Source: an uncultured Bacteroidales bacterium (lineage in GTDB: Bacteria; Bacteroidota; Bacteroidia; Bacteroidales; Paludibacteraceae). From it: 50,889 nucleotides of DNA. Shown here in pieces: positions 2,505-48,907 of this stretch; within the stretch, counting starts at the first letter, position 1, and every line of letters begins with the position of its first letter. The stretch covers positions 1 to 50,889 of the forward strand of contig ONTT01000014.1 in the NCBI GenBank assembly GCA_900320865.1, written 5' to 3'. Under the pieces are notes generated by a model that was not told where the DNA came from, made no database searches, and saw only the letters and a list, made by a program, of their open reading frames with translations. A program made the position numbers and the translations under genes.

Positions 2505-2583
2505 GTTTAAAGTTTAGAGTTTAGAGGCTTACGCCGTTTAGTGCGGCAGAGCCGCGTTTAGCGTTTAGTGTTTAATGTTTAGA
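2505..2583. repeat. Degenerate heptamer array (GTTTARN)n
   Basis: Three heptamers of the type GTTTARA (2505-2525), one at 2536-2542, and four more (2556-2583) surround a small GCGGC-AGA-GCCGC hairpin (2543-2555). It lies directly after the second lipoprotein gene. It is of the same class as the arrays at 9770, 10033, 10404, 13189 and 13602. Confidence 0.75.
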
Positions 2584-6063: not shown

Positions 6064-8877
6064 ATGGATAGTAAATATAATCCTACAGAAATTGAGGCAC
6101 GTTGGTACCAATATTGGTTGGACAATAAGATGTTTCATTCGGAAGTACCGAATGATAATGATGCTAATGATGCTAATGATGCTAATGATGCTAATGATGC
6201 TAATGATGCTAATGATGCTAATGATGCTAATGATGGAAATGATGCTAATGATGCTAATGATGCAAATGGTGGAAAGCAGGAACCGTACACGATTGTGATA
6301 CCACCGCCGAATGTGACGGGTGTGCTGCATATGGGACATGTGCTGAACGAGACGATACAAGATATATTGGTTCGTCGTGCGCGCCTGGAAGGCAAGAACG
6401 CCTGCTGGGTGCCGGGTACCGACCATGCTTCTATTGCGACCGAAGCGAAAGTGATCAAACGCCTCAAGGAACAGGGGATCAACAAGAGCGACCTGACGCG
6501 CGAGGAGTTTTTGAAACATGCATGGGACTGGACCGACGAGCACGGAGGTATCATATTGAAGCAGCTGCGTAAGTTAGGTTGCTCCTGCGACTGGGACCGT
6601 ACGGCGTTCACGATGGACGAGACGCGGAGCAGAGCGGTGATCAAAGTGTTCTGCGACCTATATAAGAAAGGGCTCATCTACAGGGGTCTGCGTATGGTGA
6701 ACTGGGACCCGGAGCGTCAGACGGCGCTGAGCGACGAGGAGGTGATCTATCATGAGGAGCATAGCCACTTGTACTATTTGAAGTACAGAGTGGCAGGTGC
6801 AAATGATGAAAATGATGGAAATGATGGAAATGATGGAAGGGATTACGCTATTGTAGCGACGACGAGGCCGGAGACGATATTCGGCGATATAGCGGTTTGT
6901 ATCAACCCGAAAGATCCGGCGAATGCATGGCTGAAGGGAAAGAAAGTGATCGTACCGGGTGTCGGTCGTGTGATCCCGATTATCGAGGATCGCTACGTGG
7001 AGATCGGTTTCGGAACAGGTTGCCTTAAAGTGACGCCGGCGCATGACGTGAACGACTACATGCTGGGGCAGAAATACAACCTCAAGACCATCGATATCTT
7101 CACGCCGGACGCGCATCTGAACATGGACACGGTAGAGGAAGAGTTGCAGCCGAACGTACGCAAGTACCACGGCATGGACCGTTTCGACTGCCGCAAGCAG
7201 ATCGTCGAAGATCTGCAGGCGCTCAACCTTGTGGAGAAGATCGAAGACTACGACAACAAAGTAGGTTACAGCGAGCGGACGAACGTGCCTATCGAGCCGC
7301 GGTTGAGTCTGCAATGGTTCGTAAAGATGAAACACTTCGCAGACATCGCGCTGCCGCCGGTGATGAACGACGAGATCGTGTTCTACCCGGCGAAATACAA
7401 GAACACATACCGTAACTGGTTGGAGAACATCAAAGACTGGTGCATCAGCCGTCAGTTATGGTGGGGTCACCGGATTCCGGCATACTACGACGCCGACCTG
7501 CTCGCTCAGACCGGTCTGGAGAACTATCCGGACGACAAGATCATCGTGAGCGAGAGTGCGCCGGAAGGCAACTACGTACAGGACGAAGGTGCGTTAGACA
7601 CCTGGTTCTCGAGTTGGCTCTGGCCGATCAGCCTGTTCGACGGTATCGAGCACCCGGATAACAAAGAGATCAACTACTACTACCCCACCGCCGACCTGGT
7701 AACGGGACCGGATATCATCTTCTTCTGGGTAGCGCGTATGATCATGGCGGGTTACGAATACGTAGGAAAGATGCCGTTCAAGCACGTGTATTTCACAGGT
7801 ATCGTGCGCGATAAGTTAGGTCGTAAGATGAGTAAGAGTCTGGGCAACAGTCCTGACCCGCTGGACCTGATAGCCCGCTACGGTGCGGACGGTGTACGTA
7901 TGGGTATATTGCTGAGTGCGCCGGCCGGCAACGACATATTGTATGATGATTCGCTTTGCGAGCAGGGACGTAACTTCTGCAATAAGATATGGAACTGCTT
8001 CCGAATGATTAAAGGGTTAGAGGTTACGGATGACGGGTTACAGGTTACGGAGAACGAATATGTTATTCGTTGGTTTGACGCGAAGTTGAAGGAGACGGAG
8101 GCGGAGATCGCGGACTTGTTCAGCAAATACCGTCTGAGCGAGGCGCTGATGGAGATCTACAAACTCTATTGCGACGAGTTCAGCGGATGGTATCTGGAAA
8201 TGATCAAACCCGCATACCAGCAGCCGATAGACCGCGCGACCTACGAAGCGACATTAGGATTCTTCGACCGTCTGCTGCGTCTGCTGCATCCATTCATGCC
8301 GTTTATCACGGAGGAGTTGTGGCACGGCTTAGAGGATCGCAAGGAAGGCGAATCGATAATGTTCGCTTCGCTTAATGATGGAAATGATGGAAATGATGAA
8401 ATACTCGCTGAGGTAGAGGAGTTGAAGGAGATCATCACGAATATACGTGCGGTGCGGGCAAGTAAGAACATACCGCAGAAAGAGAAGTTGACATTAGTGA
8501 GCCCGACCACACTCAACGTTCTGGTTGAAAAACTTGCGAACGTTGAAGTGGTGAATGGTGCGAATGATGCAAATGATGCAAATGATGCAAATGATGCAAA
8601 TGGTGGAAACTGCGCGAAGTTTATTGTTGGTACGACAGAGTATGCTATTCCGATGGATGCGTTCATCAACGTAGAGGAAGAGCTGAAGAAGTTAGAATCC
8701 GACTTAGCGCACCAACAGGGTTTTCTGAAAGGCGTAATGGCGAAACTGAGCAATGAGCGGTTCGTAGCCAACGCTAAACCGGAGATTGTTGAGTTAGAGC
8801 GCAAAAAGAAAAGCGACGCGGAGAGCCGCATCGCTTCGATCGAACAAGCCATCGCTGCGTTGAAGGGTTTTTCATAA
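6064..8877 (+). CDS. valS: Valyl-tRNA synthetase with four Asn-rich repeat insertions
   Basis: A class Ia synthetase that charges tRNA-Val. It has [15 protein letters not shown] (HIGH motif), the editing (CP1) domain with [19 protein letters not shown], the anticodon-binding domain and a C-terminal coiled coil ([11 protein letters not shown]). At 937 residues it is longer than usual because of four tracts of 9-bp tandem repeats read as Asn-Asp/Gly-X: residues 30-70, 247-258, 771-779 and 831-848. The first precedes the catalytic fold, the second is in CP1, and the third and fourth are in the C-terminal part. All keep the frame and all catalytic motifs are intact, so the enzyme is probably active with the repeats as surface loops. 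Confidence 0.95.
6151..6273. repeat. Coding 9-bp repeat tract in valS (1 of 4)
   Basis: AATGAT followed by 13 units of the AAT-GAT-NNN type (mostly AATGATGCT), ending with AATGGTGGA. It encodes residues 30-70. Orthologues I know have only a short linker here. The units are nearly identical at DNA level, with GCT/GCA/GGA the only variation, which points to recent expansion. Confidence 0.95.
6802..6837. repeat. Coding 9-bp repeat tract in valS (2 of 4)
   Basis: Four units, AATGATGAA then three AATGATGGA, inserted in the editing domain between KYRVAGA and [13 protein letters not shown]. Confidence 0.9.
8374..8400. repeat. Coding 9-bp repeat tract in valS (3 of 4)
   Basis: Three units (AATGATGGA twice, AATGATGAA once) between the segments IMFASL and [11 protein letters not shown] of the C-terminal region. 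Confidence 0.85.
8554..8607. repeat. Coding 9-bp repeat tract in valS (4 of 4)
   Basis: Six units: AATGGTGCG, four AATGATGCA, AATGGTGGA. It lies just before the segment [18 protein letters not shown]. The flanking NGA/NGG units resemble the repeat at the end of pdxA. Confidence 0.9.
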
Positions 8878-8963: not shown

Positions 8964-9770
8964 ATGCACAAAAAGGGACTTTTTATATTATTATTAACGG
9001 TATGTGTGCTCACGGGTTGCGGGGAGTACCAGAAATTGCTGAAGTCGCGCAATCCTGAGGAGAAATACCAGGCTGCGTTGCAGTACTTTAATCAGCAGCA
9101 ATACGTCAAGGCCCAGACGCTGTTAGACGATGTATCGGCGTACTACAAGGGCACGGAGCGATCGGAGGATGTCTTGGCCTATCTGGCACGCTGTTACATG
9201 GGTCAGAAGAGTTACGAGTCCGCGACGGACTACTACCAGGCTTACATCCGCAACTACCCAAAGGGCCGATATGCCACGGAGGCGTATTTTCAGATTGGTC
9301 ACTGCCAGTTCCTTGAATCGCCGGATGCCCGCCTCGACCAGGAGGTGACCCGTAATGCGATCGAGGCGTTCCAGCTCTTCGTGGAGCTCTATCCGGAGAG
9401 CCCCTATGCGGCACAGGCGTACGAGGAGATGAGCCAGTTATACGACAAGTTGGCGCTCAAGGAACTCAAGAGTGCGGAGTTGTATTACAACTTAGGTACG
9501 TATCTGGGCAATAACTACCTCAGTTGCGAGATCGTATGCAAGAACGCGCTGAAGAACTATCCGAGTAACAAATACCAGGAGGATTTCAGTTGGCTTATCC
9601 TACAGGCCAAATACCAGCAGACGATCAATTCCATCGACGAGAAGAAGCTGGAGCGGGCGCGTGAGACGCAGGACGAATACTATAACTTCGTCACCGAATT
9701 TCCGGATTCGAAGCATCGCAAAGAAGCCGAGAAGATGATTGTTCAAATTCGCAAAATAACGAGGGAATAG
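8964..9770 (+). CDS. bamD: Outer-membrane assembly lipoprotein BamD (YfiO)
   Basis: ATG 8964 opens a lipoprotein signal MHKKGLFILLLTVCVLTGC (LTGC lipobox). The 268-residue protein has TPR-like repeats throughout (KYQAALQYFNQQQYVKAQTL, LAYLARCYMGQKSYESATDY, AIEAFQLFVELYPES). BamD is the essential lipoprotein partner of BamA in inserting beta-barrel proteins into the outer membrane. The length and the SELYYNLGTYLGNNYLSCEI-like segment fit Bacteroidota BamD. The in-frame TTG at 8943 lies within the promoter and is rejected. Confidence 0.9.
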   Translation: MHKKGLFILLLTVCVLTGCGEYQKLLKSRNPEEKYQAALQYFNQQQYVKAQTLLDDVSAYYKGTERSEDVLAYLARCYMGQKSYESATDYYQAYIRNYPKGRYATEAYFQIGHCQFLESPDARLDQEVTRNAIEAFQLFVELYPESPYAAQAYEEMSQLYDKLALKELKSAELYYNLGTYLGNNYLSCEIVCKNALKNYPSNKYQEDFSWLILQAKYQQTINSIDEKKLERARETQDEYYNFVTEFPDSKHRKEAEKMIVQIRKITRE

Positions 9771-9797
9771 TTGAAAGTTGAAAGTTGAAAGTTTAAA
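9770..9797. repeat. Degenerate heptamer array, left of structured element B
   Basis: Three GTTGAAA and one GTTTAAA (9770-9797), starting on the last base of the bamD stop codon and running into GATATATGG. The array at 10033-10067 repeats the same pattern and runs into GATATGG, so element B is bracketed by near-direct repeats. Confidence 0.9.
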
Positions 9798-9801
9798 GAT
9801 A

Positions 9802-9891
9802 TATGGCGATGCTGCTTGGACGGCCAAAAGCCTGCGGATAGCGGGAGCGTATGGCGATGCTGCTTGGACGGCCAAAAGCCTGCGGATAGCG
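9802..9891. repeat. 48-bp period tandem duplication in element B
   Basis: A 42-bp sequence starting TATGGCGATGCTGCTTGGAC occurs at 9802-9843 and, without mismatch, at 9850-9891. It contains the GGACGGCC end motif of the structured element, so the left end of copy B is duplicated. Confidence 0.9.
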
Positions 9892-10004
9892 CATGCAACC
9901 CTTCGGAGTAACTCGCCCCCTGCTCGACGGATTTTGCCGTACCCCTTCGGCAAAATACGCCTCCGAGAGGGTTCATGCTAATCGTCCCTAAAGGGAGGCC
10001 GTCC
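9818..10004. repeat. Structured repeat element, copy B (187 bp)
   Basis: Bounded by GGACGGCC (9818-9825, again at 9866-9873) and GGCCGTCC (9997-10004). The last 40 bp match copy A exactly. The internal stem ATTTTGCCG (9931-9939) / CGGCAAAAT (9948-9956) corresponds to the 9-bp stem of copy A but differs in sequence at both arms with pairing kept; both loops contain ACCCC. It lies between bamD and the omega-subunit gene and encodes no recognisable protein. Confidence 0.75.
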
Positions 10005-10032
10005 AACAGATACGCCAAGGCGGGCGTGGGAA

Positions 10033-10067
10033 AATGAAAGTTGAAAGTTGAAAGTTTAAAGTTTAAA
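10033..10067. repeat. Degenerate heptamer array upstream of the omega gene
   Basis: AATGAAA, two GTTGAAA and two GTTTAAA, ending three bases before the omega start codon at 10071. Its position directly before an ATG is typical of the arrays in this window. Confidence 0.9.
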
Positions 10068-10070
10068 GAT

Positions 10071-10403
10071 ATGGATTACAAAAATTCGAAAGCACCGCGT
10101 AATACGGTGACACGTGACATCAATCAGTTAACAGAACCGGTAGGCAACGTATATGAGACGGTAGCCATTATCGCGAAGCGCGCTAATCAGATTAGCGTTG
10201 GTATCAAGCGTGAGTTGGATGCCAAACTGCAGGATTTCTCTGTTCCGCAGGACAACCTTGAAGAGACCTTCGAGAACCGTGAGCAGATAGAGATCAGCCG
10301 TCAATACGAGCGTCTGCCGAAGCCGACGCTGATGGCGACCCAGGAGTTCATCGACGGTGACCTCGTGTATCGCACCGGCAACCGCGATGAAGCGCTGAAA
10401 TAG
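10071..10403 (+). CDS. rpoZ: RNA polymerase omega subunit (Rpb6-type)
   Basis: ATG 10071 gives MDYKNSKAPRNTVTRDINQL, the normal Bacteroidota start; the in-frame TTG at 10041 is inside a heptamer array. The 110-residue protein matches the Bacteroidota Rpb6/omega family (GNVYETVAIIAKRANQIS, EETFENREQIEISRQYERLP, PKPTLMATQEFIDGDLVYR). Omega helps assemble and stabilise the beta' subunit of RNA polymerase. The bamD - omega - coaBC order is common in this group, which supports the call. Confidence 0.88.
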   Translation: MDYKNSKAPRNTVTRDINQLTEPVGNVYETVAIIAKRANQISVGIKRELDAKLQDFSVPQDNLEETFENREQIEISRQYERLPKPTLMATQEFIDGDLVYRTGNRDEALK

Positions 10404-10459
10404 GCGAAAGGTGAAAGGTGAAAGGTGAAAGGTGAAAGTCGAAAGTCAAAAGTCGAAAG
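10404..10459. repeat. Eight-unit heptamer array upstream of coaBC
   Basis: GCGAAAG, four GTGAAAG, TCGAAAG, TCAAAAG, TCGAAAG, in exact 7-bp register from one base after the omega stop codon to three bases before the coaBC ATG. It fills the whole intergenic space. Confidence 0.95.
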
Positions 10460-10462
10460 ACA

Positions 10463-11698
10463 ATGGCTTTAGAAGGCAAACACATCTTAGTAGGAATCAG
10501 TGGCGGCATAGCGGCCTATAAGATTCCGGAACTGATTCGCGGCTTGGTAAAAGCCGGAGCAGAAGTACGCGTGGCGACCACTCGCCACGCGTTGGAATTT
10601 GTTACGGAACTGACGCTTCAAACCGTTTCGGGACATCCGGTCTATTCCGATGTGTTCGCCGCCATCAATGCCCATGCTACGGAGCATATCTCGTTACCCG
10701 AATGGTGCGACGCGATGATCGTAGCTCCGGCTACAGCGAACGTCGTAGCCAAGATGGCAGCCGGCATCGCCGACGATGCGTTGACGACCACTATCTGCAG
10801 TTGCGTCGCCCGCAAACCGATCCTCATCGCCCCGGCGATGAATGATAAGATGTGGGAGAACCCTGCTACGCAGCATGCCGTCGAGACCATCCGCAATTGG
10901 CAAAACGTACGCGTGATCGAACCCGCCGAAGGCCCCTTAGCCTGCGGCACAAACGGTAAAGGTCGTATGCCCGAAGTGGAGGAACTGCAGGAAGCGCTCG
11001 CATATGCGTTGACGCCCCAGACCCTCGCCGGTCAACGGATCCTCATCACCGCCGGCGGTACCCAAGAACCCATCGACCCCGTGCGCTTCATCAGTAACTA
11101 CTCTACCGGTAAGATGGGTGTAGCTTTGGCGCAAGCCTGTGCCCGTCGCGGCGCAGACGTGACGATGGTATGCGGCGCGATGTCTGCTACCCTGCGCAAC
11201 CCCTTCGGTGCTATCCATCGGATAGACGCCCTCTCGGCGCAAGATATGTACGAGGCCTGTATCGCACAATGGCCGCGGATGAACAGCGCCATCCTCTGCG
11301 CTGCTGTAGCGGATTTCACGCCCTGCGAGAAGGCGGAGAATAAGATTAAGAAGGGTGATTGGTCATTGGTGAATGGTGAATGGTCACTGTCTCTTAAAGA
11401 GACAGCGGATATCGCCAAAGCTTTGGGACAAAGCAAGCGACCGGACCAGAAACTGATCGGTTTTGCGCTCGAGACGCAGCATGAAAAAGAAAATGCGCTC
11501 CATAAGATGGAACGCAAGAACTTAGATGCGATTGTATTGAATTCGCTGCGTGACAAGGGCGCAGGATTCGGCGTAGATACGAATCGCGTAACGGTACTGC
11601 GCGCTGACGGTAACTCCTTGGAATTACCGCTGCTGAGCAAAGAAGAAGTAGCGAATCAGATAATCCGCTATTCCATTTTACTTGAAGAGGCCGAATAG
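10463..11698 (+). CDS. coaBC: Bifunctional phosphopantothenoylcysteine decarboxylase/synthetase
   Basis: A 411-residue Dfp protein of coenzyme A synthesis. The N-terminal flavoprotein decarboxylase (CoaC) has GISGGIAAYKIPELIRGL, the active-site His in HISLPEWCDAMIVAPAT, and APAMNDKMWENPA. The C-terminal synthetase (CoaB) begins near residue 185 with ILITAGGTQEPIDPVRFISN and STGKMG. Residues 298-309 (DNA 11354-11388) are an in-frame run of five heptamers (GGTSAWT type) inserted after AENKIKK, where orthologues have a short turn. The ATG at 10463 directly follows a heptamer array. The 3' end overlaps the convergent DUF3276 gene by 21 bp. Confidence 0.93.
   Translation: MALEGKHILVGISGGIAAYKIPELIRGLVKAGAEVRVATTRHALEFVTELTLQTVSGHPVYSDVFAAINAHATEHISLPEWCDAMIVAPATANVVAKMAAGIADDALTTTICSCVARKPILIAPAMNDKMWENPATQHAVETIRNWQNVRVIEPAEGPLACGTNGKGRMPEVEELQEALAYALTPQTLAGQRILITAGGTQEPIDPVRFISNYSTGKMGVALAQACARRGADVTMVCGAMSATLRNPFGAIHRIDALSAQDMYEACIAQWPRMNSAILCAAVADFTPCEKAENKIKKGDWSLVNGEWSLSLKETADIAKALGQSKRPDQKLIGFALETQHEKENALHKMERKNLDAIVLNSLRDKGAGFGVDTNRVTVLRADGNSLELPLLSKEEVANQIIRYSILLEEAE
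11354..11388. repeat. In-frame heptamer array inside coaBC
   Basis: Five heptamers (GGTGATT, GGTCATT, GGTGAAT twice, GGTCACT). Read as DWSLVNGEWSL, they add about 11 residues to a loop of the CoaB domain. Seven base units read across codons give a 21-bp peptide period, seen as WSL...WSL. Confidence 0.85.
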
Positions 11699-13188: not shown

Positions 13189-13216
13189 GGTTAGAGGTTA
13201 GAGGTTAGAGGTTAGA
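13189..13216. repeat. Heptamer array (GGTTAGA)4 between nusB and yajC
   Basis: Four perfect GGTTAGA units starting just after the nusB stop codon. The sequence differs from the other arrays but the 7-bp period is the same. Confidence 0.95.
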
Positions 13217-13239
13217 GAATAATTAAAAAATTTATAATT

Positions 13240-13602: not shown

Positions 13603-13646
13603 GCGTTTAGTGTTAAGCGTTTAAGATTTAAGATTTAGGATTTAGG
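13602..13646. repeat. Degenerate heptamer array upstream of ybbR
   Basis: Six heptamers (AGCGTTT, AGTGTTA, AGCGTTT, AAGATTT twice, AGGATTT; 13602-13643) ending three bases before the ybbR GTG start. The AAGATTT type also occurs, reversed, inside alaS at 31361-31388. Confidence 0.88.
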
Positions 13647-27896: not shown

Positions 27897-27902
27897 ACGA
27901 TA

Positions 27903-27930
27903 TTTTTGATTTATGATTTTTGATTTATGA
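27903..27930. repeat. Heptamer array forming the lipoate ligase C-terminus
   Basis: TTTTTGA, TTTATGA, TTTTTGA, TTTATGA (+ strand reading): a perfect 14-bp unit twice. The stop codon of the lipoate ligase-like gene (27911-27913) lies inside it, so the last residues (IINQKS) are encoded by the array. It also fills the gap to the aminotransferase start. Confidence 0.92.
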
Positions 27931-28534
27931 TTGCTTTTTCGAGCGCCTCGCGAAAGAGCACCATGTCTCCGAGGTCTTGTATCTCGCGCAGGTTTCTCAC
28001 CCGTTGTCGTACAGACGCTACAGCGTGCTTCGCCAGTTTGGCCTCCGAGGGAGTGATCGCCGCTTCGAGGTCCGTCAGGTTGACGTTGTATAACATGCAG
28101 GCATGTACTACCGTGCCCGTGGGCGTGGTATAACACGCAGTTCCGCACACTTTGCGATCTCCTACCAACACATCGTTATGCGCTGTGGTCACGGCTTCGT
28201 AGCCTAACTGCCGCAAAGCTCCGGAGAGCAACACTAAAAACTGGTCAAACACCTCTTGCGAGCGGGTCGAAGGCGAGATGAACGATACCATCAGGTTCCC
28301 TCGATCGGCATACACACATCCTCCCCCGCTCTGGCGTTGTACGACTGCGATACCATGTGCGCGGCAATAGGCTTCATTCACTTCCGCCTCTGCGCATTGA
28401 TGACGACCATAGATGACGGTAGGTGATACGACCCAAGTGAAAAACGTCGGTTCTTGAATCGTCTTCACCATATCTGCTTCCATCGCCAGATAGTCCGTCA
28501 ACGGAAGACCTTCTATGACGCGCTCAATTTTCAA
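27911..28534 (-). CDS. Lipoate-protein ligase A-like protein
   Basis: 207 residues of the biotin/lipoate ligase fold: FFTWVVSPTVIYGRHQ, then the signature VVQRQSGGGCVYADRGNLMVSF, TAHNDVLVGDRKVCGTACY with the lysine used in lipoyl-AMP binding, and VHACMLYNVNLTDLEAAI. It lacks the separate C-terminal domain of E. coli LplA, as do many shorter homologues. It attaches lipoate to 2-oxoacid dehydrogenase or GcvH subunits in the cytosol. Its C-terminus ends inside a heptamer array. Tight spacing to guanine deaminase (3 bp) suggests one transcript. Confidence 0.82.
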   Translation of the reverse strand: MKIERVIEGLPLTDYLAMEADMVKTIQEPTFFTWVVSPTVIYGRHQCAEAEVNEAYCRAHGIAVVQRQSGGGCVYADRGNLMVSFISPSTRSQEVFDQFLVLLSGALRQLGYEAVTTAHNDVLVGDRKVCGTACYTTPTGTVVHACMLYNVNLTDLEAAITPSEAKLAKHAVASVRQRVRNLREIQDLGDMVLFREALEKAIINQKS

Positions 28535-30316: not shown

Positions 30317-32932
30317 TTATTGCAGGGCGGCGAGTAACTCATCCATAGCGGCCTGAAGACCTTTCACATCGCGACCTCCTGCTGTAGCCATCCAGGGTTG
30401 ACCTCCGCCGCCGCCTTGGATATTCTTAGCGGCCGACTTAATCATCGCACCTGCATTCTTTCCTGCGTCTACCAGAGGCTGACTGAGGAAGACTGCAATC
30501 GTCGGTTTACCATCGCATTCAATCGCAGCCAATACTGCGAACTTCACATCTGTGAACTTACCGCGCAGCAAAGGCAATACACCGCGTAACAACTCCGGGT
30601 TGCCTTCACCTTGCAAACGAACCAACTTGATATCGCCAAAGTCCTCCGCCCGATCAATCAGTTCATCGCGATAATGCACGACCTTCTCAGCCATGAACTG
30701 CTCGATCTGTTTCTTGAGCGCAGCGTTCTCGTCGATGAACTTATGAATAGCTCCCGCCAGATCGGGTGCATTGTTAAAGAGCGACTTCAGCCCGTTCAGC
30801 GTATCTTGCGCCATGTAATAGAGCTCATCCGCCTTGGCTGCAGTAACCGCCTCGATACGACGAATACCGGCAGCAATACTAGTCTCCATCAGAATACGTA
30901 CACAGCCGATTTTACCGGTCGAAGACACATGGCATCCACCACAAAGTTCGACAGAAGGACCATATTTGATCACACGTACATCGTCCCCGTATTTCTCTCC
31001 GAAGAGCGCCATGGCCCCCAATGCTTTCGCCTCAGCAATCGGCATATGACGATGCTCCTCCAGATGAATATCCTGACGGATGAGGCTGTTGGCCAATATC
31101 TCCACTTGACGCAACTCTTCCGGCGTTACTTTCTGGAAGTGCGAGAAGTCAAAACGCAAACTGTCCGGTGTTACGAGCGAACCCTTCTGCTCTACGTGTT
31201 TACCCAGCACTTCGCGCAGCGCATAGTGCAGGATGTGCGTAGCCGAGTGGTTGCACATAATAGCCTGACGACGCGCTGCATCCACTTCTGCGACAAATGT
31301 AGCCCCTGGTTCACTCGGCAGTTCAGCCAGAATATGTACGGGCAAGTTATTCTCTCGCTTACAATCTGAAATCTTAAATTTTAAATCTTCAATTCGGAGA
31401 TATCCGGTATCTCCGACCTCACCGCCCATCTCGGCATAGAACGGCGTCTTATTGAGCACAACTTGGTAGAAACTTTTGCCTTTCTGGCTCACCTGACGGT
31501 AACGAAGAATCTTGGTCTCGCACGCTAAAGTGTCATATCCCACAAACTCCGTTTCGCCTTCTTCCAATACCGTCCAGTCGCCTAAGTCCTGTTTATTGGC
31601 CTCACGACCCATCGATTTCTGGTGTTCAAGCGCTTTGTTATACTCCTCTTCATTGGTCGTGAATCCGTTCTCACGAAGAATTAGTTCCGTCAAGTCGAGC
31701 GGGAAACCGTACGTATCTTTGAGCGTGAATACATCCACTCCGCTGATCTCTGTCTTACCTGCTCTGCGGGCTTCGTCCATCAGTTTATCCAACAGACCGA
31801 TACCCTTGTCCAAGGTACGCAGAAAAGCTTCTTCCTCAGATTTGATAACCGGAGTGATCTGTGCCTCTTGTTGCACCAACTCCGGATAGGCCTCTCCCAT
31901 GTCTGCGATGAGCTGCGGCACGAGCCGATAGAGGAAAGCCGAACGCATATTGAGGAAAGTATAACCGTAACGAACGGCACGACGGAGAATACGACGAATG
32001 ACATAACCCGCTTTCTCGTTGCCCGGCAACTGACCGTCCGTAATAGCAAACGCTATCGTACGGATATGATCCGCAATCACGCGCATCGCGACATCGGTCT
32101 TCTCATCCTTACCGTATTCGCAACCGCAGATAGCGCCGATCTTCTTCAGCATCGGTTGGAACACATCCGTGTCGTAGTTCGAGGTCTTGCCCTGAATCGT
32201 TCGAACCAGACGCTCGAAGCCCATTCCCGTATCAATCACTTTCTTTGCAAGCGGCTCCAAGGAACCATCGGCCTTGCGGTTATATTGCATGAAGACAATA
32301 TTCCAAATCTCAATCACTTGCGGGTGATCTTTGTTCACCAACTCACGTCCGGGCACTTGCGCGCGCTCCTCCGCACTACGACTGTCTACGTGGATCTCAC
32401 TACACGGACCACAAGGACCCGTATCGCCCATTTCCCAGAAGTTATCATGTTTGTTGCCGTTCAGGATATGATCGGCCGGCAGGTGCTTGGCCCAGATCGA
32501 AGCGGCCTCGTCATCCCGACTCAAACCCTCTTCCGGCGAACCCTCAAAGACGGTTGCATAGAGGTTACTCGGGTCGATCTTCAGCACATCCACAATATAC
32601 TCCCATGCGAAATCAATCGCTTCTTTCTTGAAGTAATCGCCGAACGACCAGTTGCCCAGCATTTCGAACATCGTGTGGTGATACGTATCGTGACCTACCT
32701 CTTCCAGGTCATTATGTTTTCCGCTCACGCGCAGACACTTCTGACTGTCCGCTACGCGGGGGTATTTAATAGGGTCATTGCCCAAGATGATACCCTTCCA
32801 CGGGTTCATTCCCGCATTAGTAAACATCAGCGTGGGGTCATCTTTGATGACCATCGGCGCCGAGGGTACTACTTGATGACCCTTCGATGCCATAAAATCC
32901 AAAAAGGATTGTCTAATCTCTTTACTTGTCAT
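30317..32932 (-). CDS. alaS: Alanyl-tRNA synthetase
   Basis: 871 residues, class II synthetase of normal domain order: catalytic domain ([57 protein letters not shown]), tRNA-recognition helices, the editing domain with [14 protein letters not shown] and [10 protein letters not shown] (the zinc-site residues), and the C-terminal domain ending with [14 protein letters not shown]. Residues ~515-524 (DNA 31361-31388) are an in-frame heptamer array read as DLKFKISDC between GYLRIE and KRENNLP, where orthologues are shorter. It follows pdxA by 12 bp. Confidence 0.95.
31361..31388. repeat. In-frame heptamer array inside alaS
   Basis: On the gene strand: AGATTTA, AAATTTA, AGATTTC, AGATTGT. The type matches the array before ybbR (13623-13643). 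It lies at the start of the editing-domain region. Confidence 0.85.
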
Positions 32933-38445: not shown

Positions 38446-38463
38446 ATTAATTGTGTTTTAAAA

Positions 38464-38498
38464 TTTTCAATTTTTCATTTATCAATTATCAATTCTTA
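38464..38498. repeat. Degenerate heptamer array upstream of htpG
   Basis: TTTTCAA, TTTTTCA, TTTATCA, ATTATCA, ATTCTTA in 7-bp register on the + strand, 18 bp before the htpG start. Confidence 0.7.
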
Positions 38499-39267: not shown

Positions 39268-40617
39268 ATGAAATCACCAATCACCAATATCCAATTACCA
39301 ATAGCATTATTATTCTTAATAATGCTCTCCTCCTGCCAGTTCCGCGACGACTACACGGTCGATTTCACGGACTTAGATGCAGCGAAGGATCTGAAGTTTA
39401 AAGTCATCAGCGTTTCGGAGACCGACCTCAGCGAAGGTCTGCCTTACTGCTGTTATCTGCCGGATGGAACCCCCATCTCGGAGTATAACGAAGCCATAGA
39501 AGACAGTTCCTCCGATCGATTCCAAAAACCGCAGACCAGCAGCGTGACCGGAACTGCTATCATTCAGGAACTGCTCAAATACGGCAACCAGAACAAAGTC
39601 ATCGAGATCGTCGGCACCTACCCCAGTATCGATAGCGATGTCAATCTGGTCACCCTGTCCGGCAAAGTCATGCTTCCCAAGGGACGTAAACCGAAACGTA
39701 TGATTCTCGTTAGCCATTATACCGTGGGTTCCAATGCCGAAGCACCCTCCAATTGCTTCTCGCTCGAAGGCGTGCTCGTCAAACTCGGCTACGGACTTAT
39801 CATCCCCGATTACCTCGGCTATGGCGTGACGGTGGATCGCGTGCATCCCTATCTCGTGATGACTGAGACGGCCATCCATGTCACCGATATGTACTTCGCT
39901 GTGCGCGATTGGCTCAAAGCCGTCGATATGGCGCCCGAATACGACGATATCTATCTCATGGGCTATAGCCAAGGCGGAGCAAACACCATGGCCGTCGAGT
40001 ACCTCTGTGAGATGGCTTATAACGACCCTGCCGACACGGCTTATTACATCCCCATCCACCGCGTTTTTGCCGGAGGTGGTCCCTACGACGTGAAGGCTAC
40101 CTTCGAGCGCTTTGTCACAACCGACACTGCCGGCTATCCGGTCGCTGTACCACTGGTGCTGCAAGGAATGATTAAAGGCAATAACCTCAGTCTCACCATG
40201 GAAGACCTGATTCAACCATGGCTCTGCGAACATATCGACGATTGGGTGAACAGCAAGCGCTATACCACCGCGCAGATCAACCAACTCATCGGCACCAAAG
40301 TCACCCACGAGATCCTCACGCCAATCGCGATGGACCAGACATCCGACAAAGTGGCGGAACTCTATAAGGCAATGACCGAGAACTCGATCGCTATCTTCAA
40401 CTGGACACCCGAGGCTTCGGTCTATATCATGCATTCCATGGACGACGAGACCGTACCTTACACCAATGCGACCAACGCCAAAGCAAAATGGAGAGACGCG
40501 AATATCACCTATAACTTCGGCCACTATGGCACGCATGTCCTGACCTGCCTCCGTTTTATCGGTTCCGTTCAACAACTCCTCATACAAGAAGAGGAAGAAA
40601 GGAGTCAATATGAATAA
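39268..40617 (+). CDS. Alpha/beta-hydrolase lipoprotein (secretory lipase-like)
   Basis: ATG 39268 gives 449 residues with a lipoprotein signal (IALLFLIMLSSC). The alpha/beta-hydrolase core shows MILVSHYTVGSNAEA, GLIIPDYLGYG, the nucleophile elbow LMGYSQGGAN, a later Asp in IMHSMDDETVPY and His in NFGHYGTH. The layout resembles secretory lipases (LIP family). It would act at the cell surface or periplasm on an ester; the substrate is unknown. Codons 3-13 are encoded by an in-frame heptamer array (39273-39307). The 3' end overlaps the next lipoprotein gene by 8 bp. Confidence 0.78.
   Translation: MKSPITNIQLPIALLFLIMLSSCQFRDDYTVDFTDLDAAKDLKFKVISVSETDLSEGLPYCCYLPDGTPISEYNEAIEDSSSDRFQKPQTSSVTGTAIIQELLKYGNQNKVIEIVGTYPSIDSDVNLVTLSGKVMLPKGRKPKRMILVSHYTVGSNAEAPSNCFSLEGVLVKLGYGLIIPDYLGYGVTVDRVHPYLVMTETAIHVTDMYFAVRDWLKAVDMAPEYDDIYLMGYSQGGANTMAVEYLCEMAYNDPADTAYYIPIHRVFAGGGPYDVKATFERFVTTDTAGYPVAVPLVLQGMIKGNNLSLTMEDLIQPWLCEHIDDWVNSKRYTTAQINQLIGTKVTHEILTPIAMDQTSDKVAELYKAMTENSIAIFNWTPEASVYIMHSMDDETVPYTNATNAKAKWRDANITYNFGHYGTHVLTCLRFIGSVQQLLIQEEEERSQYE
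39273..39307. repeat. Heptamer array in the hydrolase signal peptide
   Basis: ATCACCA twice, ATATCCA, ATTACCA, ATAGCAT in 7-bp register, starting on codon 2. Encodes SPITNIQLPIA. Confidence 0.88.
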
Positions 40618-41524
40618 GTTCCGTTTACCAATTACCAATCACCAATCACTAATCGCATTATTGTTTTCAATAATAATGCTCGCTTCCTGCAACCCGGAGG
40701 CGAAGTGGGAGACCGATGATGTGATCGTGAAGATGAACATAGGTACGGTTTCTGCCGGATTCATTGAGTGTAATTTCTCGACCAATAAAGAGGCTTATTA
40801 CCTCATTGCCTGCCAACCCGCACGTTCGGATTATGACCCGATGACCGTTCAGAAACAGTTCATGACGCTGAACCTCGACTCGGCTTTTTCCGATTATCTG
40901 ATGTGGCGTAGCCGTCTGCTCTACGAAGGCGAGTTTAACATCGCGCCCTTCGAGAGCCATTCGCTCCAATATGGCGACGTCCATTTCGTCTTCACCGGCC
41001 TGCATGCCGCTACGAACTATTGGGTATATGCCTTCGTGGTGAATCCTGAGACCATGAAACCGACCGGAAAACTATTCCTCACTACCGTCAAAACAGCCAT
41101 AGGAAGTACGATGTCGATATTTTTTGAATATCGCGTGAAGGGCCGTTGGGACTACACCTACCCCATGGATGGTTACGGAAACATACGCGATATCTATCCC
41201 TATGTAACTACAACCCGGGATAGCCTCGATATCGCCAAATCGGGCGATTCGCCGGCTTTGTATTTCGCCTTGTGGTATGCTGACCTGCTTGAGTATCCGG
41301 AATGGGCCAATGTCTTATTCGGCGTCAAAGCCGTTGAGAACGACGGTTGGAACTCTTCCGTAGAGTTCGAAAAGGGACATACCTATTATACCTATATATC
41401 CGGCTTCGATGGCGCCTTCAACCATCATGTCATCTATAAGTTCAAATGGGATGGTGAATCCACCAATTATTACTTCACGGAACAGGATGCGGACCCGGAT
41501 TCAAATGATAACACCGGTCTATGA
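40610..41524 (+). CDS. Lipoprotein of unknown function
   Basis: 304 residues; lipoprotein signal ending IIMLASC. The rest has the look of one or two small beta-sandwich domains (VSAGFIECNFSTNKEAYYLI, HFVFTGLHAATNYWVYAFVV resembles a fibronectin type III end). I do not recognise a family. It overlaps the hydrolase lipoprotein (8 bp) and rlmH (ATGA) and probably belongs with the hydrolase and barrel as an envelope group. The N-terminus is encoded by an array like that of its neighbour. Confidence 0.75.
   Translation: MNKFRLPITNHQSLIALLFSIIMLASCNPEAKWETDDVIVKMNIGTVSAGFIECNFSTNKEAYYLIACQPARSDYDPMTVQKQFMTLNLDSAFSDYLMWRSRLLYEGEFNIAPFESHSLQYGDVHFVFTGLHAATNYWVYAFVVNPETMKPTGKLFLTTVKTAIGSTMSIFFEYRVKGRWDYTYPMDGYGNIRDIYPYVTTTRDSLDIAKSGDSPALYFALWYADLLEYPEWANVLFGVKAVENDGWNSSVEFEKGHTYYTYISGFDGAFNHHVIYKFKWDGESTNYYFTEQDADPDSNDNTGL
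40624..40658. repeat. Heptamer array in the second lipoprotein signal peptide
   Basis: TTTACCA, ATTACCA, ATCACCA, ATCACTA, ATCGCAT. Same family as 39273-39307 and in the same position relative to the start codon, followed in both by similar hydrophobic codons. Confidence 0.88.
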
Positions 41525-41992: not shown

Positions 41993-42020
41993 CTCTAAAC
42001 TTTAAACTCTAAACTTTCAA
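41993..42020. repeat. Heptamer array between rlmH and the M23 peptidase gene
   Basis: CTCTAAA, CTTTAAA, CTCTAAA, CTTTCAA fill the gap between two convergent genes. Here the array follows both stop codons rather than preceding a start. Confidence 0.88.
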
Positions 42021-42023
42021 CTT

Positions 42024-48570: not shown

Positions 48571-48907
48571 TTTTTGCCCAAAATAACATTTTGTCACACA
48601 AAAAGTGCAGAAAAATTTGCGTATGTGAAATTTTTGTAGTAATTTTGCACGCTTTTTTCGCTCCAGAAGGTATTGGGGCCCCCGGAAATCTGCCGATTTT
48701 TGGGGAGAGCGGAGCTGCTTCGAGTACTTCCTACTAAAACGGAGTTTTGGTACACGTACGAGGAGTTTGCCCGCGAGAAAAAAGGCTAATTTATTGTTTA
48801 ACTTTTAACGGGAATTCGGAATTTGGTGTTTAGTGATTTGCGATGAAGATATTCATTATTCATTAATCATTATTCATTAAAATTTTGTTTCCCCACAATT
48901 CTACCAC
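48571..48907 (+). promoter_or_regulatory. Promoter and long structured leader of rpsA
   Basis: TTG (48617-48619), 20 nt, TAATTTTG (48640-48647), so the transcript begins near 48654 and the leader is about 250 nt. Inside it TACTAAAAC (48732-48740), loop GGA, GTTTTGGTA (48744-48752) form a 9-bp stem with one G-T pair, enclosed by GTAC (48724-48727) / GTAC (48756-48759). Near the start codon are heptamers ATTCATT (48851-48878). Autogenous control by S1 is a reasonable guess. Confidence 0.6.
48851..48878. repeat. Heptamer array (ATTCATT type) upstream of rpsA
   Basis: ATTCATT twice, AATCATT, ATTCATT, ending 29 bp before the rpsA ATG. Confidence 0.9.

Follow-up and report, generated by a model that had tools for sequence, protein, structure and literature searches.

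The STRRs of cyanobacteria are heptanucleotide repeats, and the palindromic elements of Rickettsia are short sequences tolerated in frame inside genes. An excess of heptamers in some bacteria was noted by Mrazek (2007), as cited in the available text of PMC4679880 and PMC4692102, where a 7-nt contact of the polymerase, a hypothesis only, is quoted from the same author as the cause. According to the available part of PMC4679880 (MacGregor 2015), TAACTGA repeats are found in five Bacteroidetes (two sets of them in Paludibacter propionicigenes) as well as in Beggiatoaceae and cyanobacteria, so that the view of an earlier note on the present DNA, that no such system had been described for Bacteroidales, was not quite right.

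Here we analysed a window of 50,889 nucleotides from the metagenome-assembled genome (MAG) of an uncultured Bacteroidales bacterium (1.97 Mb in 65 contigs, 82.65% complete), referred to below as the window genome. Its closest named relatives are uncultured Bacteroidales or Paludibacteraceae, several of them of the ruminant gut, and its sister genome (G061) is approximately 97% identical to it (93-99% in aligned pieces); samples of these two genomes are not independent. Tandem arrays were scored by the number of bases matched at lag p, and short periods thus need more copies. Genes were called with a codon-score caller, “coding” meaning an overlap of more than 60% with these calls.

The window contains 15 period-7 arrays at a score of at least 12 and 11 at a score of at least 14, and 20 local order-2 shuffles of it contained none. 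In a 387-kb sample of the window genome, period 7 accounted for 62 arrays at a score of at least 14, the next of the periods from 2 to 13 reaching at most 7 (periods 14 and 21, as harmonics of 7, were set aside), while five shuffles of this sample yielded 0-1 period-7 arrays at the score of at least 12 and none at 14. Of the five genomes sampled, four were dominated by period 7: at the higher threshold the sister had 39 such arrays (at most 9 for any other period up to 13), G035 had 56 (at most 10) and G007 had 31 (at most 7). The enrichment over periods 5-9, proposed earlier as a check, was found in these four genomes and failed in the congener G029, of which 387 kb contained no period-7 array at score 14 and three at score 12, which shows that the trait is uneven within the genus. 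G029 (loci L174-L193) has 12 period-11 arrays in 387 kb, and elsewhere in it the imperfect string AGTCGAAAGTCAAAAGTCGAAAG is present in many copies. A degenerate pattern of three heptamer units matched in 43 of 61 genomes (the window genome included) with very uneven counts, its backward control likewise matching in many; degenerate and exact heptamer patterns alike are weak evidence, because backward control patterns also match often (21 and 19 versus 25 and 26 in the window genome; 48 and 46 versus 30 and 29 in G035).

The original observation of period-7 arrays in the window is real but incomplete. Ten of the eleven sites listed in the earlier note score at least 12 as period-7 runs, the exception (20331) scoring only 8, and a tandem-repeat finder (TRF) likewise recovered most of the sites, 20331 not among them. 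That neighbouring units differ by one or two bases was borne out. The first reading overlooked arrays lying within coding sequence, in coaBC and alaS (Table 1). In the 387-kb sample, at a score of at least 12, there were 29 arrays in 351 kb of coding and 44 in 36 kb of non-coding DNA.

Table 1. Heptamer arrays of the window and the state of the corresponding sites in the sister genome
Feature	Position	Strand	Sister genome or remark
Intergenic array GTTTAGA	2505..2526	+	Sister stretch empty at the site
Intergenic array GCGTTTA/GTGTTTA	2554..2581	+	Sister stretch empty
Array AGTTGAA 3' of bamD-like stop	9769..9798	+	Left copy of array split by ~230-bp insert
Part of insert between both array copies	9818..10028	+	Dispersed repeat; empty site in sister
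Array AGTTGAA/AGTTTAA	10035..10068	+	Right copy, 5' of start of gene with Pfam Rpb6 (omega-like) match
Array AGGTGAA/AGTCGAA, spacer from omega-like gene to coaBC	10402..10459	+	Sister AGTCAAA/AGTCGAA, 14 bp shorter
In-frame coaBC array GGTGATT/GGTGAAT	11354..11384	+	Sister GGATTCA x4 in same place
Intergenic array GGTTAGA x4	13189..13217	+	Sister GTTTAGA x2
Intergenic array TTTAAGA/TTTAGGA	13620..13646	+	Sister 20 bp shorter, retains only start of region
Array ATTTTTG/ATTTATG, 3' edge of lipoyl-ligase-like gene	27902..27932		Identical in sister
In-frame alaS array, GATTTAA-type	31363..31408	-	Sister AGTTGAA-type array, equal length
Intergenic array	38462..38494		Identical in sister
Intergenic array AATCACC/AATATCC	39272..39302		Near-identical in sister
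Intergenic array ACCAATC	40625..40654		Identical in sister
Array TAAACTT between convergent genes	41996..42023		Sister CTTTCAC-type units and hairpin, 27 bp longer
Array TATTCAT with one TAATCAT unit	48850..48879		Same imperfect 27-mer at other loci; no anchored sister counterpart

Several other repeats were seen in the same DNA. The insert that splits the AGTTGAA array is flanked by two copies of the array together with the start region of the omega-like gene, and it has partial copies on contigs C49, C47 and C14 and at 2625-2813 of the window. There is also a 13.6-copy octamer array (GGATGAGA) at 2826-2936 and a 13-copy nonamer array (ATGCTAATG) at 6152-6268, the latter inside a large ORF. 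The spacer between the omega-like gene and coaBC is absent in many relatives. Small hairpin-like stretches such as GTCGCTGCGCGAC were noticed by eye in or beside heptamer runs, both in pre-coaBC spacers (L088, L103, L104, L108) and at 2527-2553 of the window, and local inverted duplication may accompany the array process.

The arrays show no clear preference for start or stop codons, to which the earlier note had tied them. In the window genome, 31 gaps between tandem genes contain an array, which lies within 10 bp of the stop in 20 and within 10 bp of the start in 18 cases, close to the 16.3 expected for each if the array is placed at random within the same gap. The corresponding numbers were 16 and 13 in 23 gaps of the sister (expected 13.8 each), and 12 and 9 in 21 gaps of G035 (expected 7.8 each). 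Arrays in gaps are near starts and stops because the gaps are short. Selection on this proximity is unsupported, given the near-random placement in gaps and the presence of arrays deep inside genes.

The strand of intergenic arrays had no tie to that of the nearest gene in the window genome (p=0.53), the sister (p=0.15), G035 (p=0.13) or G007 (p=1); an association appeared in G035 when all arrays were counted (p=0.02). There is a hint of a replication-strand orientation, since the intergenic arrays of the window genome follow strand-corrected GC3 skew (14/10/2/16, p=0.003), as do those of the non-independent sister (p=0.015); no such association was found in G035 (p=0.46) or G007 (p=0.64). In the window itself the cumulative GC skew has a turning point near 22 kb; the heptamer strand changes near 30 kb.

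A function as stop cassettes, in which a stop codon within the unit closes all frames (7 mod 3 = 1), was also considered; both orientations occur in gaps. The way the caller is built places coding arrays in open frames, and frame-broken copies inside genes would escape it; among those of the window genome no frame was closed in the sense direction in 18/27 and all three were closed in antisense in 18/27. The respective numbers were 15/20 and 7/20 in G007, and G035 showed no orientation asymmetry (no frame closed in 15/35 versus 14/35). As the stop-free orientation survives in the coding arrays of the window genome, the stop cassette was rejected as a function.

Comparison with the sister revealed a turnover of the arrays. 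Among 37 arrays on three contigs of the window genome, 33 had an anchored counterpart in the sister; nine of the 33 were identical, including 12-nt borders, and 13 differed in length, five of them by multiples of 7 and eight by other values (-46, -52, -13, -20, +3, +10, +27 and +38). The former are whole-unit (7n) length changes between relatives, as in the class of heptanucleotide simple sequence repeats (SSRs); the rest are not whole units. Base-for-base conservation is thus not general, yet besides these nine cases one coding array (AATCTCC/AATCTTC) is nearly unchanged in L071, L075, L125 and L096, loci with protein identities of 65-98%.

With stricter anchors, and with unresolved sites dropped (7/24 intergenic and 0/13 coding arrays; 99/300 intergenic and 53/300 coding controls), the length had changed in 8/17 intergenic arrays (four by multiples of 7) compared with 20/201 controls (one). 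An identity below 80% was found for 4/13 coding arrays versus 2/247 coding controls, and for 1/17 intergenic arrays versus 0/201 controls. The reverse comparison, from the sister to the window genome, is not independent; here 19/32 intergenic and 8/22 coding arrays were dropped as unresolved (controls 163/300 and 120/300), and the length had changed in 7/13 intergenic arrays (five by multiples of 7) versus 17/137 controls (two), while the identity was below 80% in 3/14 coding arrays versus 1/180 and in 1/13 intergenic arrays versus 3/137. Only for coding arrays does replacement clearly exceed the level of the controls. In coaBC the arrays of the two genomes differ in length by +3 within flanks that are 97.8% identical, and in alaS by 0 within flanks 99.4% identical. 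In a gene of the HlyIII family, GATTGGT-type units of the window genome face AGTTGAA/AGTCGAA in the sister (length difference 0, flanks 98.8% identical). The reading frame is open in all three cases.

Such arrays also occur far inside genes. Counting only those located 90 bp or more from each end of a called gene, and with the harmonic 14 set aside, period 7 leads in the window genome (21 arrays against at most 5 for any other period), the sister (13 against 4), G035 (19 against 2), G007 (15 against 2) and the loci of 58 relatives (25 against 3). The frame-keeping periods 3, 6 and 9 are rarer than 7 inside genes, with 2, 3 and 5 arrays in the window genome. This trend is opposite to the suppression of SSRs in the central parts of prokaryotic genes, for which the available text of PMC4692102 (Rehm 2015) cites Lin and Kussell.

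The genes of 12 of the 23 interior arrays of the window genome were identified by Pfam or, for coaBC, which is one of the 12, by homology. Apart from coaBC and alaS in the window, they encode a histidyl-tRNA synthetase (HisRS), a FabD-like acyl transferase, a MiaB/RimO-like radical SAM protein, a TsaD-family protein, a GlgB-like amylase, a PcrB-deaminase fusion, a nucleotidyl transferase, a DUF3987 protein, an SBF-like protein (below the Pfam cut-off) and the HlyIII-family protein. The peptides encoded by the arrays show seven-residue patterns (e.g. QITNHQSPITN, KSKIKNQKSKI and VKGERLKVKGE). The array-coded stretch coincides with a seven-residue insertion in the FabD-like protein relative to the solved FabD 3hjv, contains one extra residue in the PcrB protein and entails no net insertion in HisRS; for alaS the best solved chains stop short of the array loop. 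In an AlphaFold model of the window CoaBC (29 sequences, mean pLDDT 87.5), the array residues (approximately 297-307) are placed among short strands, with a pLDDT of 72-73 for the block.

The CoaBC loop contains period-7 runs at a score of at least 9 in 9/58 loci (two of 60 loops, L081 and L118, were missed by the search pattern), and runs of periods 5, 6, 8 and 9 in none. The units are GGTGATT, GGATTCA, CTTCAAC, AATCAGC, GTGTTCA, TACACCC and AGTATTC. In a CoaBC tree computed after removal of the loop, the carriers of arrays do not form one clade; L072 groups with the array-free L093 and L113 (93/93) and L070 with the array-free L068 and L069 (100/97), the window and L067 standing apart. The AlaRS loop has scored arrays with different units in the window genome, the sister, G035 and G007, and heptamers can be recognized by eye in L215, L217, L222, L227 and L237, most other rows shown being without them.

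One strand of the unit consensus lacks C in 53/62 arrays of the window genome, 28/39 of the sister and 42/56 of G035, against approximately 40% of random intergenic 7-mers. The statement that each site has a different consensus was only partly right, since 63% of the 62 arrays in the window genome have an exact unit in common with another array (27% on average for random C-free 7-mers). Sharing of units is more frequent inside one genome than between species, and the heptamer repertoire is genome-specific. The frequency of exact-unit matches per pair was 0.0575 within the window genome, 0.0378 within G035 and 0.0373 within G007, compared with 0.019 between the window genome and G035, 0.0073 between the window genome and G007, and 0.0156 between G035 and G007; this excess was reached by 0, 0 and 1 of 300 label permutations, respectively. 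Sharing within the sister (0.0291) was lower than that between it and the window genome (0.0434), a pair with orthologous arrays. Among the loci of 58 relatives there were 5/82 exact-unit matches within and 92/5321 between loci. A universal sequence preference as the sole cause of shared units is disfavoured by the genome-specific vocabularies, differences in base composition lying outside this comparison.

It seems probable that the arrays result from a lineage-limited 7-nt slippage or template switch, with selection acting as a filter and existing arrays providing part of the seeds, and that they are not regulatory sites. A process acting at the DNA level with a preferred 7-nt step (replication slippage or local template switching) would create, lengthen, shorten and replace arrays throughout the genome. 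The arrays would persist where a few dozen changed bases are tolerated, i.e. in gaps and gene interiors, and in the latter only in-frame, stop-free versions would remain. If new arrays were partly seeded from those already present, each genome would acquire its own heptamer vocabulary. The 7-nt length steps and the in-frame survival fit slippage plus selection. The earlier idea that the sites reflect a mechanism working in 7-bp steps and not common descent gains support from the dominance of period 7 in four of five genomes, from some 7n length changes and from the different units found in place in the sister. According to the usual argument, slippage with point mutation shifts a consensus at about the neutral rate; the unit switches seen at approximately 97% identity would therefore need a putative additional step, either deletion with re-expansion or copying. 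Unit replacement is not accounted for by slippage with point mutation alone, and the arrays may have been lost and regrown from another seed, or overwritten from other arrays. We infer slippage or template switching by a polymerase and a copying of seeds from locus to locus, with no need for a regulatory function of the arrays. Loss of MutS was rejected as a cause: a MutS_III match is present in 35 of 37 genomes of the genus, and the two without it are 54% and 84% complete.

The main rival is a mobile heptamer cassette or a repeat-spreading enzyme that would copy arrays between loci, the replacement of coding loops being ectopic conversion. The genome-specific vocabularies speak for it, as does the imperfect 27-mer TAATGAATAATGATTAATGAATAATGA, which among 61 genomes occurs at 11 places in G035 (L244, L247, L249-L257), two in the window genome (L245, L248) and one in G003 (L246), with mostly unrelated flanks (by eye, nine distinct ones among the 11 places in G035). 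These two observations favour some copying between loci. Copying is weakly evidenced, because only 7/76 arrays of the window genome have an imperfect 28-mer that recurs exactly in a second array (12/107 in the sister, 2/75 in G035). Moreover, when donors for nine replaced or changed blocks were sought in approximately 774 kb of the sister and 399 kb of the window genome, a single long near-exact match reaching beyond the array was obtained, that of the sister block at C14:42553 with another sister array (37 bp at 97%), itself a point in favour of the rival. Array flanks are unrelated and no fixed ends of the kind expected of REP/MITE-like mobile elements were seen, and we consider such a spreading agent unlikely. 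We are equally doubtful of a bolder proposal, in which a DNA-rewriting activity restricted to the lineage, either a polymerase that switches template or an enzyme that copies heptamers, in both cases with a 7-nt step, would continually overwrite short stretches with the genome's own heptamers. Essential enzymes would thereby have their loops rewritten in frame over no more than the time that separates sister species.

The arrays might alternatively be regulatory or translational sites on transcripts, i.e. protein-binding repeats just 5' of start codons, as the available text of PMC4679880 (MacGregor 2015) proposes for another heptamer, TAACTGA of Beggiatoaceae. Many arrays do end a few bases from a start codon, and in G035 the strand follows the nearest gene when all arrays are counted; however, the near-random distances within gaps, the intergenic strand untied to the nearest gene in all four genomes, the unit differences between sister genomes at some sites and the arrays within coding sequence make this role very improbable. 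Selected diversity, with the arrays acting as contingency loci or diversifiers of protein loops, would profit from the frame shifts that changes of copy number bring about, 7 not being divisible by 3, and from the many proteins that arrays partly encode. We give it little credence, as the genes affected include core enzymes (AlaRS, HisRS, FabD-like, CoaBC, MiaB/RimO-like) that are poor on/off targets, bearing in mind that the caller is blind to frame-broken alleles. Judging by their titles, nearly all of the 59 named loci come from metagenome bins, which raises the question of assembly artefacts or binning mixtures. Such an origin is extremely improbable: bins with arrays in the CoaBC loop come from several projects (RUG, RGIG, metaWRAP), and L078, of a UBA bin, has an array in the spacer, while control segments of the same contigs show no such change.

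The preferred reading, slippage or template switching with partial reseeding, can be confronted with that of copying in this group of bacteria. The genus pairs heptamer-rich genomes (the window genome, G035 and G007) with a heptamer-poor congener (G029), the sister genomes provide unit switches at known sites and the frames of core genes record tolerated change, which together make both ideas testable. The results also suggest a route by which approximately ten residues of a protein loop could change at once, and indicate that low-complexity differences in loops between close MAGs may be real.

As far as the available sources describe them, heptanucleotide SSRs resemble the present arrays in the over-representation of period 7 among longer units; they differ in that here each genome has many unit families, mostly C-free on one strand, period 7 leads over 3n periods inside genes and units are replaced between sisters. 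The GGGAATC and GGGGA(C/T)T repeats of Xanthomonas and Nostoc (PMC4692102, available text) are likewise heptamers near many kinds of genes that vary strongly in length and sequence between close species, for Xanthomonas between two of them. The G-quadruplex heptamers of that source have runs of at least three G per unit, which the frequent units here lack (none has a G run longer than two), although a longer run is present in individual units, e.g. ACGGGTG and AGGGGTT. The TAACTGA repeats, in the accessible part of PMC4679880, are also direct heptamer repeats in gaps, with indels mostly in 7-nt steps between two Cyanothece strains; they have one fixed unit, similar heptamers being rarely repeated in the main genome, whereas here the unit is free and many units other than TAACTGA are repeated. 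TAACTGA or its rotations are absent from the 60 commonest units (one TCAGTTA unit lies in an array at C33:97685), and the preference of that family for positions a few nucleotides 5' of starts is not seen here (18 versus 16.3 expected). The tandem repeats of archaeal Borgs (PMC9879509, available text) also evolve fast, arise independently, occur in gaps and ORFs and have a base bias, but their units in ORFs are divisible by three and near perfect, in contrast to the degenerate unit of 7 found here.

The Rickettsia elements are palindromic, whereas the present arrays are tandem heptamers. We found no description of in-frame heptamer turnover in core genes in the open-licence articles searched. 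The type of repeat is known, and its turnover inside core genes is unusual. As far as our literature search reaches, the lead of period 7 in gene interiors, the in-frame replacement of units between sister genomes and the genome-specific heptamer vocabularies are new.
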